A stretch of DNA of 44,894 nucleotides, from the NCBI GenBank assembly GCA_002069965.1, contig MWCI01000022.1:1-44894 (forward strand). Reading direction: 5' to 3'. The translations under genes and the position numbers were made by a program. Positions 38,266 to 44,671 of the stretch are shown here, in pieces. This DNA is from Spirochaetes bacterium ADurb.Bin218. Its GTDB lineage: Bacteria > Spirochaetota > UBA4802 > UBA5550. Every line of letters begins with the position of its first letter. The stretch's first letter is position 1. A model generated the notes under the pieces. It saw only the letters and a list, made by a program, of their open reading frames with translations. It had not been told where the DNA came from and made no database searches.

Positions 38266-38817
38266 TTATTTGTTTCCAAATTTATCCTTGTGTGTAAATT
38301 CAGAAATTTCTCTGCGCTTTGGACCTTCTTTTTTGAATTCAACAGGCTTGCCAACAGGTAGTATTACAACAAGCTCGTATGGATCTTTTACATTTAGCAG
38401 TCTTGCACACTTTTCGTGGTCAAGGGAACCTACAACTACTGTTCCAAGGCCAAGATCATGAGCTGTAAGGCTGATGTTTTGAACTGCAATGCCAAGGTCA
38501 AACATAAACCATGAGTCAAATTTTGTCCTCTGGATTCCATCTTTAAATCCTGGGAGATCTCTCTTGCCGCATACAGCAATTAGCACTGATGCTGACTCGG
38601 AGCATTTTCTTGCAGGATTTGTTTCAGAGTAAGTGTCTGTTACTTCTTTTATGAGATTTTTATCGCGAATAACAATAAATTCCCAGCATTGAGTATTTGC
38701 CCAGGAAGGAGACCAGCGGGCAGCATTAAGCAATGCCTCAATTTCTTCATCTGTAACATAATACTCTGTAAACTTGCGAACAGATCTTCTTGTTAAAATA
38801 GCTTCTTTTAATTCCAT
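38266..38817 (-). CDS. Nitroreductase-family flavoprotein
   Basis: 183 residues. RRSVRKFTEYYVTDEEIEALLNAARWSPS is the FMN-binding start. NTQCWEFIVI and LGIAVQNISLTAHDLGLGTVVVG complete the fold. It is a small NAD(P)H-dependent FMN reductase; the substrate is not readable. It is the last gene of the cimA-led run, starting nine bases after the PseG-like gene. Confidence 0.88.
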   Translation of the reverse strand: MELKEAILTRRSVRKFTEYYVTDEEIEALLNAARWSPSWANTQCWEFIVIRDKNLIKEVTDTYSETNPARKCSESASVLIAVCGKRDLPGFKDGIQRTKFDSWFMFDLGIAVQNISLTAHDLGLGTVVVGSLDHEKCARLLNVKDPYELVVILPVGKPVEFKKEGPKRREISEFTHKDKFGNK

Positions 38818-38826
38818 AATATCACC

Positions 38827-39720
38827 TCACAGTAAATTTTCTATATACCGGGTAAAGTTTTTAACTTTTGTTTCTATCTTAATCAGGATAGGAGACTTTG
38901 CAATATAATTATCTTTTTTTTGCGAATTTTTATAAATCCTGTGCAACTCTTCTTGAGTATGATTTGAATTGATTTCGCTGTATTGGCAAGATAGTTCAAT
39001 ATTTAAGTCCCTGGCGATTAGCTCTGTAAGCCTCTGGTGATAATCTGATGGGTTAAAGCTTATTATATTGCACTGAGAGATCTTTGCCTCAAAGAGAGTT
39101 ATGCCAAAGTGAGTAATTACATTTTTTGCTCTCAAGATAAGCTCAGAATAGTTGTTTATTTTTGATAATTCCTTGCTATGGAGATTATAAGCTTTTCCCT
39201 TTATAAGGACAAGGCTTTTTGACCCCTCAGGTAATATTTTTTGTAAAATCTCAAGGGTCTTTGAATCGGGAGAGATGCCAGGATAAATAAGGAAATCTAT
39301 ATCTTTGTAAATATTTTCTTCGCTTATTTCTTTAAGTCCATTATAAAAATTGTATCCATAGAGAAATTTATCAAAATCGATATGATTAAGCGAAAGGTTA
39401 GGCAGTAGATAGAGAGAGTAGTCAGATATTGCATTCCCTTCTCCCATGTCATCAATGCTCAGAACTGGAGCATGTTTTTTGAGAATCTTTATCTCTTCAG
39501 TGTTTGAATCACGCATATCTCTTATAATAAGGTTTGCTTCCTTTAGTGAATCACTCCATAAATATTCAAGGCCATCTAATGGAGCCATTGTTTTTGAGTA
39601 TATCTGGGCCTTTAGCCTCTTTTTCTCGTTTGCATATTGGGCAAAGAAAAGCATTCTCTGAAAATGGCCTGTTCCAAGTGAACCGCCTGTGGCTGTTATT
39701 ATGGCTATTTTTTTATCCAT
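38827..39720 (-). CDS. PseG/SpsG-like nucleotide-sugar hydrolase
   Basis: 297 residues with a glycosyltransferase-B-like start: TATGGSLGTGHFQRMLFFAQYA contains the G.GH..R motif of PseG and SpsG, which cleave UDP from an aminosugar intermediate. IIRDMRDSNTEEI and PVLSIDDMGEGNAISDY match the family's D....E and SIDD elements. The C-terminal VITHFGITLFEAKISQ is the second nucleotide-binding lobe. It overlaps the SpsF-like gene by eight bases, supporting a shared pathway, as in pseudaminic/legionaminic acid loci. Confidence 0.75.
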   Translation of the reverse strand: MDKKIAIITATGGSLGTGHFQRMLFFAQYANEKKRLKAQIYSKTMAPLDGLEYLWSDSLKEANLIIRDMRDSNTEEIKILKKHAPVLSIDDMGEGNAISDYSLYLLPNLSLNHIDFDKFLYGYNFYNGLKEISEENIYKDIDFLIYPGISPDSKTLEILQKILPEGSKSLVLIKGKAYNLHSKELSKINNYSELILRAKNVITHFGITLFEAKISQCNIISFNPSDYHQRLTELIARDLNIELSCQYSEINSNHTQEELHRIYKNSQKKDNYIAKSPILIKIETKVKNFTRYIENLL

Positions 39721-40450
39721 GGCTGTAGTGAGTCATAGGTCGTTGCTCAATGTGGGAATTGATTTTTGTTAAGTCTGGTTCGCTTTTTATAAGTTCAAAG
39801 ACCTCCTGTAATAAAATGGGTCTTCCCTGGTAGAGCCGTTCATATATTATTTTTATAAGTTCCAGATCCTCCGCTGTATCAACAGTTAAACGGAGATCTG
39901 GAAATGGATTGGTAAGCTCTGATTTGTTTTTTAGAAGGTAAAAAATTTCAGGATGTTCTTTTATGTAGGGTGTAACGTGTTCCCTGTGATGAGGTTCTTT
40001 CCCTTCCAGATAAGCTCTCATTAAGGCTTCTTTCTTTATGACCTCAACACCTGTTCCAAGGGGAATTCCCTCTGTTGTGCAATGATCTGCACTGTACCTA
40101 TAAGCCTTTTTAAGAGCAGATGATGCAGAGATATGATCTATAAGAGGATTATCTCCAGTTATTCTGATTATGTAATCGCAGTCAATGTTCTTTGAGGCAA
40201 GATAAAATCGTTCAAGGACATCATCTTCAGAGCCCATAAAAGAGTCTATGGAGCAGGAGTTTGCAAGGTCAATCAGTGGCTGGTTTTCCTTTCCAATGCC
40301 TGTTGCAAGTATTATTTTATGCAAGCCCTCAATAGCCTTAGCTCTTTCTATAACGTGATAGGTAAGGGCTTTGCCTCCGATTATAGACAGAGCCTTGCCT
40401 GGAAGGCGAGTTGAGTTTATTCGTGATTGTATTATAGCTATTGCTTTCAT
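39713..40450 (-). CDS. SpsF-like cytidylyltransferase
   Basis: 245 residues. AIIQSRINSTRLPGKAL (residues ~6-22) is the CMP-sugar synthetase/SpsF nucleotide-binding signature, and DDVLERFYLAS with YIIRITGDNPLID the metal-binding region. HREHVTPYIKEHP is also typical. It would activate a sugar acid or polyol with CTP. It lies between a radical SAM gene and a PseG-like gene, two bases after the former and overlapping the latter. Confidence 0.85.
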   Translation of the reverse strand: MKAIAIIQSRINSTRLPGKALSIIGGKALTYHVIERAKAIEGLHKIILATGIGKENQPLIDLANSCSIDSFMGSEDDVLERFYLASKNIDCDYIIRITGDNPLIDHISASSALKKAYRYSADHCTTEGIPLGTGVEVIKKEALMRAYLEGKEPHHREHVTPYIKEHPEIFYLLKNKSELTNPFPDLRLTVDTAEDLELIKIIYERLYQGRPILLQEVFELIKSEPDLTKINSHIEQRPMTHYSHG

Positions 40451-40452
40451 AT

Positions 40453-41973
40453 TTAGAAATTAAAGGTATACCATTCGTCGCATTTGCTGCAATCTGGATT
40501 TACCGGAAATCTAAACTTATAGCCTTCTATAAATGATTGCTTCTGATTTTTTAGTATATCCTCAAGGCTCTCGTTAGTAATATTTCCTCTGCTAAAATCT
40601 CCATCTATATCTTGTTTGCAAAAGGAAACAGTTCCATCTGCAAGAATATATAAGTCTCGTTGCAAATGCCAGCATGGTATTCTTTTTAATGGGGATAGAT
40701 CAGAATATCGTCTGTCTTTTATTTTTCCAAGATATATGTTTTGCTTTTGAAGTATAATGGGAAATTTTTGGCTTTCCCAGAAGTCATAGTATCTGTCAAG
40801 ATAGCTTCTTTGCTCGCCTTTTTGTATTTCATCAGTTTCGTTTATCTTCATGATTTGAAGATAAATTCTTTCACCATCTTTATTGAGTTCAGCAAGTGAT
40901 GTAATATTTTTAAATACTGTATCGTATCTATCCGCGCCGTGCAGTCTTATGTATGAGTCTTTATCTAAGGCATTATTGTTTATTATGACAGAGATCTTTT
41001 GGCTCTCGGGCTTTTGTAGAAATGTCTTAAAATTTGTATCTGCATATATTCCATTTGTTTCTATAATTATTCTTTCAACCAGAGGATCTCCACAGGCTAT
41101 TGAAAGCATTGAATAGAACTGAGGGTGCATTAATGGCTCTCCAGATCCCCCAAGGCTTAAAGTATAGGGTAGGTTATAGGCCTTCATCTCAGAAAGTATT
41201 TTCTGAAATGTGGAGATCTCCATCATGGGGTGTTCTTTTTTAAGTGATTTCCTGTAGCAGAAGATGCAGTCAAGGTCACAGCTTCCGCATATCTCTATTT
41301 CTATATACGATGGGGATAGAAATAGTATCTCTGGATTGTTATCTATGATCTCTTTTATTTCGCTATAGGAAGGAGTGCCTTGCTTGAGAGAGAGAATCCT
41401 CTCCATAATTGCCTTATCCCTTGGATTTGATACTCTGAAGGATAGGCGCTTTTCCCTTATATCCGGCTCCTTATAAAATAGCTCAACATCAAAAAGGTTT
41501 ATGTTTGATTTTATTACCTGTGAGAGCGGAAGAGTTTTTTCTTTAATATCAGGAATGTTTTCCATAAGATCTGTGGAGATTATTTCACAGGCAAATCCCT
41601 CAGGGAGATTTTCTGAATATGTAAATTCAGCAAGATATTTTACATGGACTTCAATCATTTCTCTGAGAATTTCGGGATCAAAAAATGCGGAGTCTGCTTT
41701 AATGATTGCTATATTTTTTGATTCAGTTTTTTCAAATAGATTTTTCCAGAATGGGACATCCTCATTTCCCTCTCTGATGAAAATGTCTTTTTTGTTTAGA
41801 AGAGTTCCATTGTAATTTGCCGGTATAGAATAAAAGATCTTGCATTGAGGAAAATTTTGAGCCACCCTCTCTGCAATTATTTCCGTGGAGAGTTTATTGT
41901 TAAAAGAAATCAATTCATCAGAGAGAGTATTGCTTTCAATATGGATTAAAACATCAAAATTTTCACTTTTCAT
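40453..41973 (-). CDS. Spiro-SPASM-type radical SAM protein with an SpsF-like N-terminus
   Basis: 506 residues. Residues ~1-190 resemble a nucleotidyltransferase fold, with AIIKADSAFFDPEIL where SpsF has YIIRITGDNPLID. Residues ~228-430 are the radical SAM core: CGSCDLDCIFC (C-x3-C-x2-C, ~233-243) binds the 4Fe-4S cluster, and SLGGSGEPLMHP follows. The C-terminal ~90 residues are a SPASM domain (CWHLQRDL, FCKQDIDGDF, CSKCDEW) that would bind auxiliary Fe-S clusters. The architecture matches the spirochaete-restricted spiro-SPASM proteins, which have no established substrate. It overlaps the SurA-like gene by one base (TAATG). Confidence 0.85.
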   Translation of the reverse strand: MKSENFDVLIHIESNTLSDELISFNNKLSTEIIAERVAQNFPQCKIFYSIPANYNGTLLNKKDIFIREGNEDVPFWKNLFEKTESKNIAIIKADSAFFDPEILREMIEVHVKYLAEFTYSENLPEGFACEIISTDLMENIPDIKEKTLPLSQVIKSNINLFDVELFYKEPDIREKRLSFRVSNPRDKAIMERILSLKQGTPSYSEIKEIIDNNPEILFLSPSYIEIEICGSCDLDCIFCYRKSLKKEHPMMEISTFQKILSEMKAYNLPYTLSLGGSGEPLMHPQFYSMLSIACGDPLVERIIIETNGIYADTNFKTFLQKPESQKISVIINNNALDKDSYIRLHGADRYDTVFKNITSLAELNKDGERIYLQIMKINETDEIQKGEQRSYLDRYYDFWESQKFPIILQKQNIYLGKIKDRRYSDLSPLKRIPCWHLQRDLYILADGTVSFCKQDIDGDFSRGNITNESLEDILKNQKQSFIEGYKFRFPVNPDCSKCDEWYTFNF

Positions 41974-43037
41974 TACATAGCCTTGACGTAATCATTCATA
42001 TAAATTTTTATAAAGGATTCTTTTTTTCTTTGTTCAACCCATTTGCTGAATTGTTGTTCCATTTTTTCAGTATAGAGCTTATACATGATTATGCGTTCGA
42101 CTTTTTCAAAGGTCACAGGTCTTTTATCAATAAATTTTACAATGTGATAACCAAATCCAGACTTAAATACTGAGGATATCTGACCACTTTTGTTCATCCT
42201 AAAAACATTATTTGCAAAGTATGGATCAAATTGGCCAAGGATCTGCCATCCGAGATCGCCTCCATTTACAGCAGAGGCTTTATCTTGAGAGTATTTTGCA
42301 GCCATGGATTCAAAGGATTCACCGGCTAAAATTTTTTTTCTTATCTCCTCAGCTTTTTGATTTGCTGCTTTTTCGCTTGCAAGGGATTTACCTTCAGGAA
42401 TTATGAGTATATGTTTAACATGGACTTCATATCCGAGTTTGGACTTATTGGCATTATACCATTTTTTTACCTCTTCCTGAGAGGGAGGTGTTGTCCCTAC
42501 TGTTACAGACATGATCTGTTCCTTGGCAATTTTTACTCGTAGCTCATCAAAGAATGTAAAAAAATCGACCTTTTCTTTTTTTTCTATATATTCAATAAAG
42601 GATTGTAATTCAGGTTCTATTTTTACTTTTGATTCAAATCTGTTTTCCATAAATTTTTCAAGATTACGGGAAACCTTTTCTACAGTTGCAGGAATATCTT
42701 TGTAGCCTTTGGATTCAAAAAAGTTTGAAAGAAATCCATGCAACTGATTTATTACTTTTTTGTTGCTTATCTCTATGGACTCTTTATTTGCAGTTTCAAA
42801 GATAATCTCATTTTCTATGAGATTATCCAGAATTCTGCTTTTTTCGTATGCCACTTTTGATGGAGGAATTGTTTTGGATTGAGCAATTCGATTATACCTG
42901 AGATTGACCTCACTCTCCATTATGGGTCTGTTATTTACAACAGCAAGAACTTTATCATACTCTGTCCATGAATAAAGAAAGACGCTTTGAGCCAAAAAGC
43001 ATATAACAATCAAAAAAGTGGTAATATTCTTTTTCAT
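41973..43037 (-). CDS. SurA-like periplasmic peptidyl-prolyl isomerase/chaperone
   Basis: 354 residues. Signal peptide (residues 1-~22). VLAVVNNRPIMESEVNLRY is the SurA N-terminal domain start. Residues ~195-305 are a parvulin domain: VKHILII, FESMAAKYSQDKASAVNGGDLGW and FGYHIVKFIDKRP. Only one parvulin domain is present, against two in E. coli SurA. It probably folds outer-membrane proteins in the periplasm. It begins nine bases after cimA and ends in a TAATG overlap with the radical SAM gene. Confidence 0.88.
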   Translation of the reverse strand: MKKNITTFLIVICFLAQSVFLYSWTEYDKVLAVVNNRPIMESEVNLRYNRIAQSKTIPPSKVAYEKSRILDNLIENEIIFETANKESIEISNKKVINQLHGFLSNFFESKGYKDIPATVEKVSRNLEKFMENRFESKVKIEPELQSFIEYIEKKEKVDFFTFFDELRVKIAKEQIMSVTVGTTPPSQEEVKKWYNANKSKLGYEVHVKHILIIPEGKSLASEKAANQKAEEIRKKILAGESFESMAAKYSQDKASAVNGGDLGWQILGQFDPYFANNVFRMNKSGQISSVFKSGFGYHIVKFIDKRPVTFEKVERIIMYKLYTEKMEQQFSKWVEQRKKESFIKIYMNDYVKAM

Positions 43038-43046
43038 ACAAAATCC

Positions 43047-44633
43047 TTAATTATTTACCTTGCTCCCTCTTTTTTTAAAGAGGAGGTACTCAATCCCATC
43101 TACAAGAGCAGCCCATGATGCTTCGATTATGTTTGGCGATACACCTACAGTTCCCCAGTGGTTTGTTCCATCTGTTTGATCTATAAGGACACGAACACTG
43201 GATGCAGTGCCTTTATTGTCATCAAGAACACGAACCTTGAAATCTGCAAGATGCATCTGTGCAATCTCCGGATAGAATTTGGTAAGAGCCTTTCTCAGAG
43301 CATTATCCATAGCTTCAACAGGACCATTTCCATTGGCAGCAGTATGCTCAAGAATTCCTCCAACTTCTATTTTTATTGTTGCCTCACTTTCCAGATAACC
43401 ATTGCTATCCATCTCTGTTATGAGTCTGAATCCAAGGAAGTTAAAGAATGGTTTGTATTCACCAGTGGCTTCTCTGATTATAAGTTCAAAGGAGGCCTCT
43501 GCTGCCTCAAACTGGAACCCCTGTTCTTCAAGATTTTTTATTTTTTCAAGAATTGTCCGTGATAGATTGATGTCTCCAGTTATATCAATGCCCAGTTCCT
43601 TTGCCTTGAATTCAACATTACTCTTCCCGGAGAGCTCTGATATCAATACTTTTCGTCTATTGCCAACAAGAGAGGGATCTATATGTTCGTATGTTCTGGT
43701 ATCCTTTTGCAAAGCAGAGACATGTATTCCACCTTTGTGAGCAAAGGCATTGTCTCCTGCATAGGGCATATTCTCTCTATGGGGAAGATTTGCAATTTCA
43801 CTAACCATTCTGCTGACCTCTGTGAGGTGCTGGAGAACTTCAGCTGAAGAGCAATGATAACCCATTTTAAGGGCACTGTTTGGTATGAATGTTATGAGGT
43901 CGCAATTCCCACATCTTTCTCCATATCCATTGATTGTTCCCTGTATGGATACAGCTCCTGCATCAATGGCATACATTGAGTTTGCCACTGCCACACCAGA
44001 ATCATTGTGGAAATGGCCTCCTACAGCAGTGGAAAATTTAGAGGTTACATCCCTTGTGATATCAAAAACTTCAGAAGGTAATGTCCCTCCATTGGTATCG
44101 CACAGCACCAGCATATCAACGCCTGCCTCGCATGCCTTTGCAAGGCAACTGAGAGAGTAATCGCTATTGCTTTTGTATCCATCAAAAAAATGTTCTGCAT
44201 CAAGAAAAACAGTAAATCCAAGATCTTTGAGATATGCTACAGAATCGTAGATGAGTTCAAGATTTTCATGGAGTTCCATGCCAAGGGCTTTTGTAACCTG
44301 AAAATCCCATGATTTGGCAACAAGAGTTATAACATCAGCCTTTGAATTTACCAGTGATTGCATCATAGGATCTTCTTTACATGATAATCCCTTCCGCTTT
44401 GTTGATCCAAATGCTGCTATCTTAGAATGCTGTATATCTAACTTTCTGACCTCAGAAAAAAAGGCTTCATCTTTTGGGTTTGATCCTGGCCAGCCACCTT
44501 CAATATAATCTATTTTTAGCCAGTCCAGTATTTTAGCAATATTAAGTTTGTCCTGAAGAGAAAAGGAAATGCCTACAGTTTGAGCACCATCCCTTAGAGT
44601 TGTATCATAAATTGATATAATCTTTTTCGTCAT
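43047..44633 (-). CDS. cimA: (R)-citramalate synthase
   Basis: About 528 residues. It condenses pyruvate and acetyl-CoA to citramalate, the first step of threonine-independent isoleucine synthesis. ISIYDTTLRDGAQ is the metal/substrate start. GGWPGSNPKDEAFF, LCDTNGGTLP, GGHFHNDSGVAVANS and HKGGIHVSAL are diagnostic of CimA, not LeuA. The C-terminal ~130 residues are the allosteric domain (NGNGPVEAMDNALRKAL), duplicated as a free protein at 14986-15441. I take the ATG at 44633, six bases after GGAG; a GTG two codons upstream abuts that site. Confidence 0.93.
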   Translation of the reverse strand: MTKKIISIYDTTLRDGAQTVGISFSLQDKLNIAKILDWLKIDYIEGGWPGSNPKDEAFFSEVRKLDIQHSKIAAFGSTKRKGLSCKEDPMMQSLVNSKADVITLVAKSWDFQVTKALGMELHENLELIYDSVAYLKDLGFTVFLDAEHFFDGYKSNSDYSLSCLAKACEAGVDMLVLCDTNGGTLPSEVFDITRDVTSKFSTAVGGHFHNDSGVAVANSMYAIDAGAVSIQGTINGYGERCGNCDLITFIPNSALKMGYHCSSAEVLQHLTEVSRMVSEIANLPHRENMPYAGDNAFAHKGGIHVSALQKDTRTYEHIDPSLVGNRRKVLISELSGKSNVEFKAKELGIDITGDINLSRTILEKIKNLEEQGFQFEAAEASFELIIREATGEYKPFFNFLGFRLITEMDSNGYLESEATIKIEVGGILEHTAANGNGPVEAMDNALRKALTKFYPEIAQMHLADFKVRVLDDNKGTASSVRVLIDQTDGTNHWGTVGVSPNIIEASWAALVDGIEYLLFKKRGSKVNN

Positions 44634-44671
44634 TGACACTCCATTTTGAATTTTTTACAAGTGTCAAACAT
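44630..44671 (-). promoter_or_regulatory. Stem and short upstream ORF over the cimA start
   Basis: On the minus strand TTGACACT (plus 44660-44667) pairs exactly with AGTGTCAA (plus 44633-44640), an 8-bp stem lying between the GGAG ribosome site and the ATG. A 13-codon ORF (ATG at 44671) also runs across the region and ends with TGA overlapping the cimA ATG. It has no visible ribosome site and no Ile, Leu or Val run. Confidence 0.4.

Follow-up and report, generated by a model that had tools for sequence, protein, structure and literature searches.

Spiro-SPASM proteins of spirochaetes: a predicted pseudo-cytidylyltransferase head on a radical SAM/twitch core, with a possible role in flagellin glycan synthesis

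Why a protein whose head resembles a cytidylyltransferase should be joined to a radical SAM core, directly beside an apparently intact copy of that same cytidylyltransferase, is the question raised by a locus of Spirochaetes bacterium ADurb.Bin218. The window, i.e., the whole stretch of 44,894 nucleotides analyzed here (contig MWCI01000022.1), carries the gene on the minus strand, at the position that a first-pass annotation of the letters had assigned to it. It lies in a run of co-directional genes:

43047..44639, minus strand: citramalate synthase (TIGR00977, 740 bits), which opens the co-directional run throughout the order to which the window belongs
41973..43037, minus strand: SurA-like peptidyl-prolyl isomerase, overlapping the spiro-SPASM start by 1 nt; a neighbour shared by SurA-type loci across the phylum
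40453..41973, minus strand: spiro-SPASM gene (TIGR04321), 506 aa from an ATG start, with a predicted pseudo-cytidylyltransferase head, a radical SAM core and a twitch/SPASM-like cluster domain
39713..40450, minus strand: SpsF-type cytidylyltransferase with intact signature (PF02348, 2.2e-31), 2 nt past the spiro-SPASM stop
38827..39720, minus strand: SpsG-like protein, overlapping SpsF by 8 nt, with profile kinship to a protein of locus L074 that matches TIGR03590 (PseG)
38266..38817, minus strand: nitroreductase-family protein (PF00881, 6.2e-33), which ends the co-directional run

The protein belongs to the uncharacterised NCBIfam family TIGR04321 (spiroSPASM), which it matches over nearly its full length (residues 25-506 to model positions 20-510) with 371.2 bits against a curated cut-off of 250, and whose domain order is the same throughout the phylum. 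A search of the open-access literature found neither a paper using the family name nor biochemistry for any member, and nothing on a pseudo-cytidylyltransferase head, a fusion of nucleotidyltransferase and radical SAM domains or a missing CX3CX2C motif in spiro-SPASM. TIGR04321 is listed as a SPASM protein; the present analysis adds the head and the lack of the motif in many members. The following parts were assigned to the window's copy:

41338..41973, minus strand: head (residues 1-212), predicted to fold as an SpsF-type cytidylyltransferase that lacks the CTP-binding loop (hhalign, AlphaFold2, Foldseek and an HMM match to 6OEW)
41914..41943, minus strand: degenerate site (residues 11-20) matching the Q-R-STRLPGK triphosphate loop of SpsF in the family alignment
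41692..41694, minus strand: codon of Asp94, equivalent of SpsF Asp100 (GDxP), Asp in 74/84 members
40744..41310, minus strand: radical SAM core (residues 222-410; PF04055 at 227-382), with BtrN as nearest solved sequence
41257..41280, minus strand: CX3CX2C motif (C232-C236-C239), intact in the window's copy
40456..40701, minus strand: twitch/SPASM-like domain (residues 425-506; PF13186) with Cys 434, 452, 495 and 498

Pfam recognizes the two rear parts (Radical_SAM, 3e-10, residues 227-382; SPASM, 4.7e-11, residues 434-499) and yields no significant match within the first 220 residues. The full-length AlphaFold2 model has a pLDDT of 92.3 and a pTM of 0.90, the latter suggesting that head and core are placed in a defined manner rather than joined by a floppy tether. 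Among the 50 structural matches listed, no single PDB chain spans head and core (best TMq 0.42). From sequence and model together, spiro-SPASM is thus predicted to be a dead SpsF-type cytidylyltransferase domain fused to a radical SAM core of the BtrN kind and a twitch/SPASM domain with one cluster.

A first independent hint of kinship between head and SpsF comes from the TIGR04321 model itself, as it also matches the neighbouring SpsF over residues 26-228, with a weak but significant E-value of 3.5e-5. The comparison of a head profile (residues 1-205 of 84 family members) with one built on 63 SpsF proteins of these loci gave a probability of 98.6% (hhalign, E 7.7e-16, 196 aligned columns), while nine other families of the loci, used as controls, reached 0.0-2.4%. 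The in-order alignment of head and SpsF, which had been proposed from the letters alone, is therefore far beyond chance, and the motif pairs on which it was based recur in the profile alignment (GNEDVPFWKNLFEK with SEDDVLERFYLAS, IAIIKADSAFFDPEIL with YIIRITGDNPLIDHIS and SENLPEGFACEII with TEGIPLGTGVEVI). The fold of the head is equally consistent with a GT-A nucleotidyltransferase, a point on which the proposal had been declared refutable beforehand. An AlphaFold2 model of residues 1-212, built on a 58-row alignment, has a mean pLDDT of 94.0 and a pTM of 0.90, and its top match in the PDB (Foldseek) is the cytidylyltransferase 6OEW of Leptospira borgpetersenii (E 3.3e-9, TM 0.77 by query length), followed by IspD, GlmU, KdsB and NeuA.

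The sequence profile of the head points to the same relative. Among solved structures it matches 6OEW with an E-value of 1e-6, followed by MobA (0.096) and GlmU (from 0.14 upward), whereas KdsB and IspD gave no match below E 1; the SpsF of the window matches 6OEW at 5.8e-22. Cytidylyltransferases of the phylum, typed by their N-terminal motifs, score 28-42 bits against the head profile if they are SpsF-type proteins outside the locus and at most 20 bits if they are KdsB-, IspD- or GlmU-like; the 63 SpsF proteins of the loci themselves score between 3 and 51 bits (median 25). By these comparisons the head is an SpsF-type domain, closer to this type than to the KdsB, IspD or GlmU types. The same fusion proved to be general among the spiro-SPASM proteins of spirochaetes.

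Whether such a head could still act as a cytidylyltransferase was judged from its conserved residues. Ten residues that are invariant in 63/63 SpsF proteins, namely Q8, R10, R15 and K19 of the nucleotide loop as well as R81, R96, T98, N101, E157 and H158, are without a conserved counterpart in the 84 heads. The Q-x-R...STRLPGK loop is accordingly not found in the head throughout these members, which extends the loss of RLPGK already noticed for the window's protein, and the neighbouring SpsF, which had been taken for the active copy, keeps the invariant residues of its family. Several other positions did persist: D100, P102, P130, G132 and E136 of SpsF have conserved counterparts in D94, position 96, P124, G126 and E130 of the head, with position 96 being Pro in 77/84 members and Ala in the window's copy. 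D94, like SpsF Asp100, is presumably the metal-binding Asp of the cytidylyltransferase superfamily (GDxP). The second metal-binding Asp (TVDT) is replaced by Ser182 in the window and is Asp in only 25/84 members. In addition, the head has gained near-invariant residues of its own (H110, N159, D162, E164, D171, R173, R176 and R185), and D99 is near-invariant as well.

With its CTP-loop residues unconserved, D94, P124, G126 and E130 kept and a new near-invariant set acquired, the head is predicted to be a catalytically dead, repurposed pseudo-SpsF. The loss of the triphosphate loop, combined with a pronounced signature specific to the head, is most readily explained by a repurposed binding or docking domain. 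The idea of a substrate-binding head stays putative, as R10, R15, K19, R81, R96, E157 and H158 are lost and another conserved set is found instead.

The radical SAM core has BtrN as its nearest solved structure by sequence (E 1.6e-17), and the structural neighbours of the full-length model include, among the matches listed, DesII, BlsE and viperin with CTP. BtrN is a radical SAM/twitch dehydrogenase that acts on a free aminocyclitol. Three of the four auxiliary cysteines of spiro-SPASM lie inside the segment aligned with it; unlike spiro-SPASM, BtrN has no cytidylyltransferase head, and many spiro-SPASM proteins differ from it by lacking the SAM cluster motif. Only four cysteines of the auxiliary domain (434, 452, 495 and 498) are invariant among all complete sequences, and the seven-cysteine motif of a two-cluster SPASM domain is absent, so that one cluster and a twitch-like rather than a full SPASM domain are to be expected.

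The window's copy retains C232, C236 and C239 and may be an active radical SAM enzyme. The earlier designation as such is thus reasonable for this protein, but it does not extend to the family, a quarter of which is devoid of the motif. CX3CX2C at 232-239 is missing in 24/84 aligned members, with the flanking sequence still aligning, and in 31/121 relatives after removal of near-copies; one of the 31 (L153, DCC at the motif) is incomplete and lies at a contig end. These motif-less relatives keep E305 (31/31), K410 (30/31), mostly the GEP segment and, in every complete sequence, all four twitch cysteines. Loss was found in genomes G183 (2,843,201 bp) and G096 (1,139,633 bp), in the Brachyspira-like clade of 480 aa and in the relatives L088/L132, L133 and L134 of the window's order. 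The Brachyspira-like proteins of L073 and L094 are also peculiar in their surroundings, since neither SpsF nor SpsG adjoins spiro-SPASM there and SpsF-type genes are located elsewhere in these genomes.

That every member is nevertheless a radical SAM enzyme, with the missing motifs being artefacts of alignment or assembly, is hardly credible. It is true that 60/84 aligned members have the motif. However, the flanks of the motif-less members align cleanly without cysteines, no CX3CX2C is found elsewhere in their chains except in four sequences, at their C-terminal twitch end, the loss occurs in single-contig genomes and sister species share it. A mere slip of the alignment was dropped as an explanation after inspection of the flanks and a motif search of the whole chains. 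In a maximum-likelihood tree, computed by a quick search without the motif columns and without the incomplete L153, the state of the motif changes at least 13 times, or 9 times if only strongly supported branches are counted. As a regain of three cysteines at the same place is unlikely, most of these changes would be losses, and the motif appears to have been lost independently no fewer than 9 to 13 times. Values of dN/dS for head, core and twitch parts, with saturated comparisons set aside, are 0.06-0.34 for motif-less pairs and 0.04-0.26 for intact pairs. Judged by these ratios, motif-less copies are under purifying selection like intact members; decaying pseudogenes were ruled out on the same grounds. 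The repeated loss of the motif, with the signature of the head and all four twitch cysteines being kept, argues that the role common to the whole family is probably one of binding or scaffolding and not radical chemistry.

The gene neighbourhood gives a clue to the pathway. The core of the locus consists of spiro-SPASM, SpsF and SpsG, with the latter two adjoining in most of about 119 loci. The window's SpsG-like protein has no meaningful match in Pfam or NCBIfam itself, and only its relatives reach PseG (TIGR03590). This core occurs in two settings. In one of them, seen in the order of the window, in Leptospira relatives and in others, a SurA-like isomerase lies upstream. In the other, which is the type of the Spirochaetales, an orphan gene of ~330 aa, SpsG in fusion with a methyltransferase, and separate genes for ATP-grasp ligase, amidase, Germane and FlaA proteins lie downstream, with FlaA often being a few kb or a few genes away.

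Several variants of the locus were observed. Citramalate synthase is located just upstream of the SurA/spiro-SPASM/SpsF/SpsG genes in the window, L061, L081-L087 and most of L101-L131, throughout much of the window's order. The orphan gene of the Spirochaetales (L074:9468-10448 and 37 relatives) lies between spiro-SPASM and SpsF and is without a match in Pfam or NCBIfam. Its pattern D..G.Y....F...GG.D.......WQ..DF..R...WG is reminiscent of a GT-A glycosyltransferase, and a relation to SpsF was rejected at the level of profile comparison (3.3%). SpsF, SpsG and the methyltransferase form a single protein of ~820-880 aa in Treponema and others (L062:10828-13416, L066:4355-7000, L090:6131-8599), of which the L066 protein has RLVRK in place of RLPGK. 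Two consecutive SpsF-like genes follow spiro-SPASM in L070, the second being joined to SpsG.

Genuine members of the spiro-SPASM family (E below 1e-20) occur in 303/393 genomes of Spirochaetota, and 16 further genomes of the phylum gave nothing beyond weak matches of a generic radical SAM kind. FlaA is absent in 46/393 genomes; three of these 46 carry spiro-SPASM, two of them being assemblies of 54% and 69% completeness. Conversely, 47 genomes have FlaA without spiro-SPASM, and 36 of them (0.9-1.9 Mb) belong to family f39, which we take to be Borreliaceae. The family thus covers almost all flagellated Spirochaetota, with a pattern of presence and absence that depends on a small number of independent losses. 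When 84,980 species genomes were scanned with a close set of 11 members as query, 491 relatives were returned, of which 80 were retained; 28 more distant members gave an alignment too variable along its whole length to be used for such a scan. Nearly all of the 80 are spirochaetal by title, the exceptions being a single MAG titled 'Caldithrix' and a few records called simply 'bacterium', and those exceptions that were placed on the tree fall among spirochaete sequences. The record titled Caldithrix sp. (L136) carries a SurA/spiro-SPASM/SpsF locus of the spirochaete type and is probably a mislabelled or misbinned MAG.

In B. subtilis, SpsE, SpsF and SpsG take part in the synthesis of legionaminic acid (PMC7439481), and Maf proteins are taken to transfer nonulosonates onto flagellin (PMC4065374). 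The same set of enzymes is present in spirochaete genomes, with NeuB, cytidylyltransferase and Maf occurring together. NeuB was found in 16/16 carriers of spiro-SPASM tested and the Maf family (PF01973) in 52/52, as opposed to 0/10 genomes of f39, 0/3 of f45/g96 and 1/13 of f49; the 11 genomes outside f39 that have FlaA without spiro-SPASM do contain PF01973. The window's own genome has a PF01973 gene (G000:C11 = L199:6826-7740) just upstream of genes that were named fliL-, fliM- and fliN-like by eye. A second Maf-family gene of this genome (G000:C60 = L196:8584-10440) shares its contig with a flagellar rod-protein-like gene. From the adjacency of SpsF and SpsG, the frequent position of FlaA a few kb away and the presence of NeuB and Maf in carrier genomes, spiro-SPASM can with moderate confidence be placed in a nonulosonate-type pathway for a flagellin glycan. 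We know of no radical SAM protein in the described pathways of legionaminic acid synthesis and Maf-dependent flagellin glycosylation.

Within this pathway, SpsG and NeuB would make a sugar acid similar to legionaminate or pseudaminate, to be activated with CMP by SpsF and then attached to the periplasmic flagellin by Maf-type transferases. The head would serve as a docking or ligand-binding module, which either holds a sugar nucleotide or pairs with the active SpsF, and would thereby present the SAM/twitch core with the activated sugar or its carrier. Where CX3CX2C is intact, as it is in the window's copy, a radical step on the sugar like that of BtrN or DesII could follow at the core, while a binding or cluster role alone would remain in members without the motif. 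Taken as a whole, a dead SpsF head and a radical SAM/twitch core serving nonulosonate-based flagellin glycosylation is the best explanation at hand, and we give it an even chance of being correct. Ligand binding as the role of the head is a tentative assignment, and a sugar nucleotide as its ligand is a guess, as most residues conserved in active SpsF are lost. SpsF and NeuB can serve a surface polysaccharide in place of flagellin, which counts against this explanation. So do the operon neighbours in the window (SurA and citramalate synthase, with no flagellar genes among them) and the f39 genomes, which keep FlaA without spiro-SPASM.

A locus that makes a surface polysaccharide or a lipid-linked sugar unrelated to the flagellum, with FlaA and Maf being linked to it by shared ancestry only, would fit the window-clade loci, which are without flagellar neighbours, and SpsF and SpsG also serve spore surface sugars (PMC7439481). 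We nevertheless consider it unlikely, since many Spirochaetales have FlaA a few genes downstream and 43/46 FlaA-less genomes lack spiro-SPASM. Moreover, the only CTP_transf_3 gene of G096, a genome of 1.14 Mb, is the SpsF-SpsG-methyltransferase fusion two genes from spiro-SPASM, and one NeuB and four Maf-family matches accompany it in that genome.

For the head, the main competitor to ligand binding is a pseudo-subunit that binds no sugar and forms a mixed dimer with the adjacent active SpsF, regulating it or anchoring the SAM/twitch part. KdsB and similar cytidylyltransferases of the superfamily are dimers; spiro-SPASM adjoins spsF in most loci of the phylum, and the residues lost from the head are those invariant in active SpsF. 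The Brachyspira-like L073 and L094, where SpsF-type genes exist away from spiro-SPASM, argue against such a pairing, and it appears rather unlikely. An enzyme with altered chemistry, e.g., a metal-dependent transferase that works through Asp94/Asp99 and the newly conserved positions, would account for the near-invariance of D94, D99, H110, N159, E164, D171, R173 and R176, which goes beyond the needs of a scaffold. As the triphosphate loop is unconserved in every lineage seen and the second metal position is mostly not Asp, this is quite improbable. A more radical reading, doubtful but worth stating, is that two decaying enzymes were fused and that both catalytic hearts became dispensable, the CTP loop everywhere and the SAM cluster in many lineages. 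The twitch Fe-S cluster and the remodelled pseudo-cytidylyltransferase pocket would then be the essential parts, acting in a non-radical role in the spirochaete flagellar glycan.

The best explanation remains a dead SpsF head with a radical SAM/twitch core in the nonulosonate pathway. The likeness of the head to SpsF-type cytidylyltransferases (PF02348; 6OEW) comprises the shared fold, profile homology, the GDxP Asp and the PxG...E loop, whereas the CTP loop and most invariants are missing, new invariants have arisen and a radical SAM core is fused. The results also carry a warning that not every TIGR04321 protein should be called a radical SAM enzyme. The family instead offers a natural series in which the SAM cluster motif appears to have vanished from a radical SAM fold on nine or more occasions, with the fold still being under purifying selection. 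An uncharacterised protein of almost all flagellated spirochaetes thereby gains a domain anatomy and a testable pathway. FlaB of T. denticola is described as bearing an essential novel glycan of 450.2 Da (PMC9481697). Spiro-SPASM together with SpsF, SpsG, NeuB and Maf would provide a directly testable route for the biosynthesis of this unusual, essential Treponema flagellin glycan.
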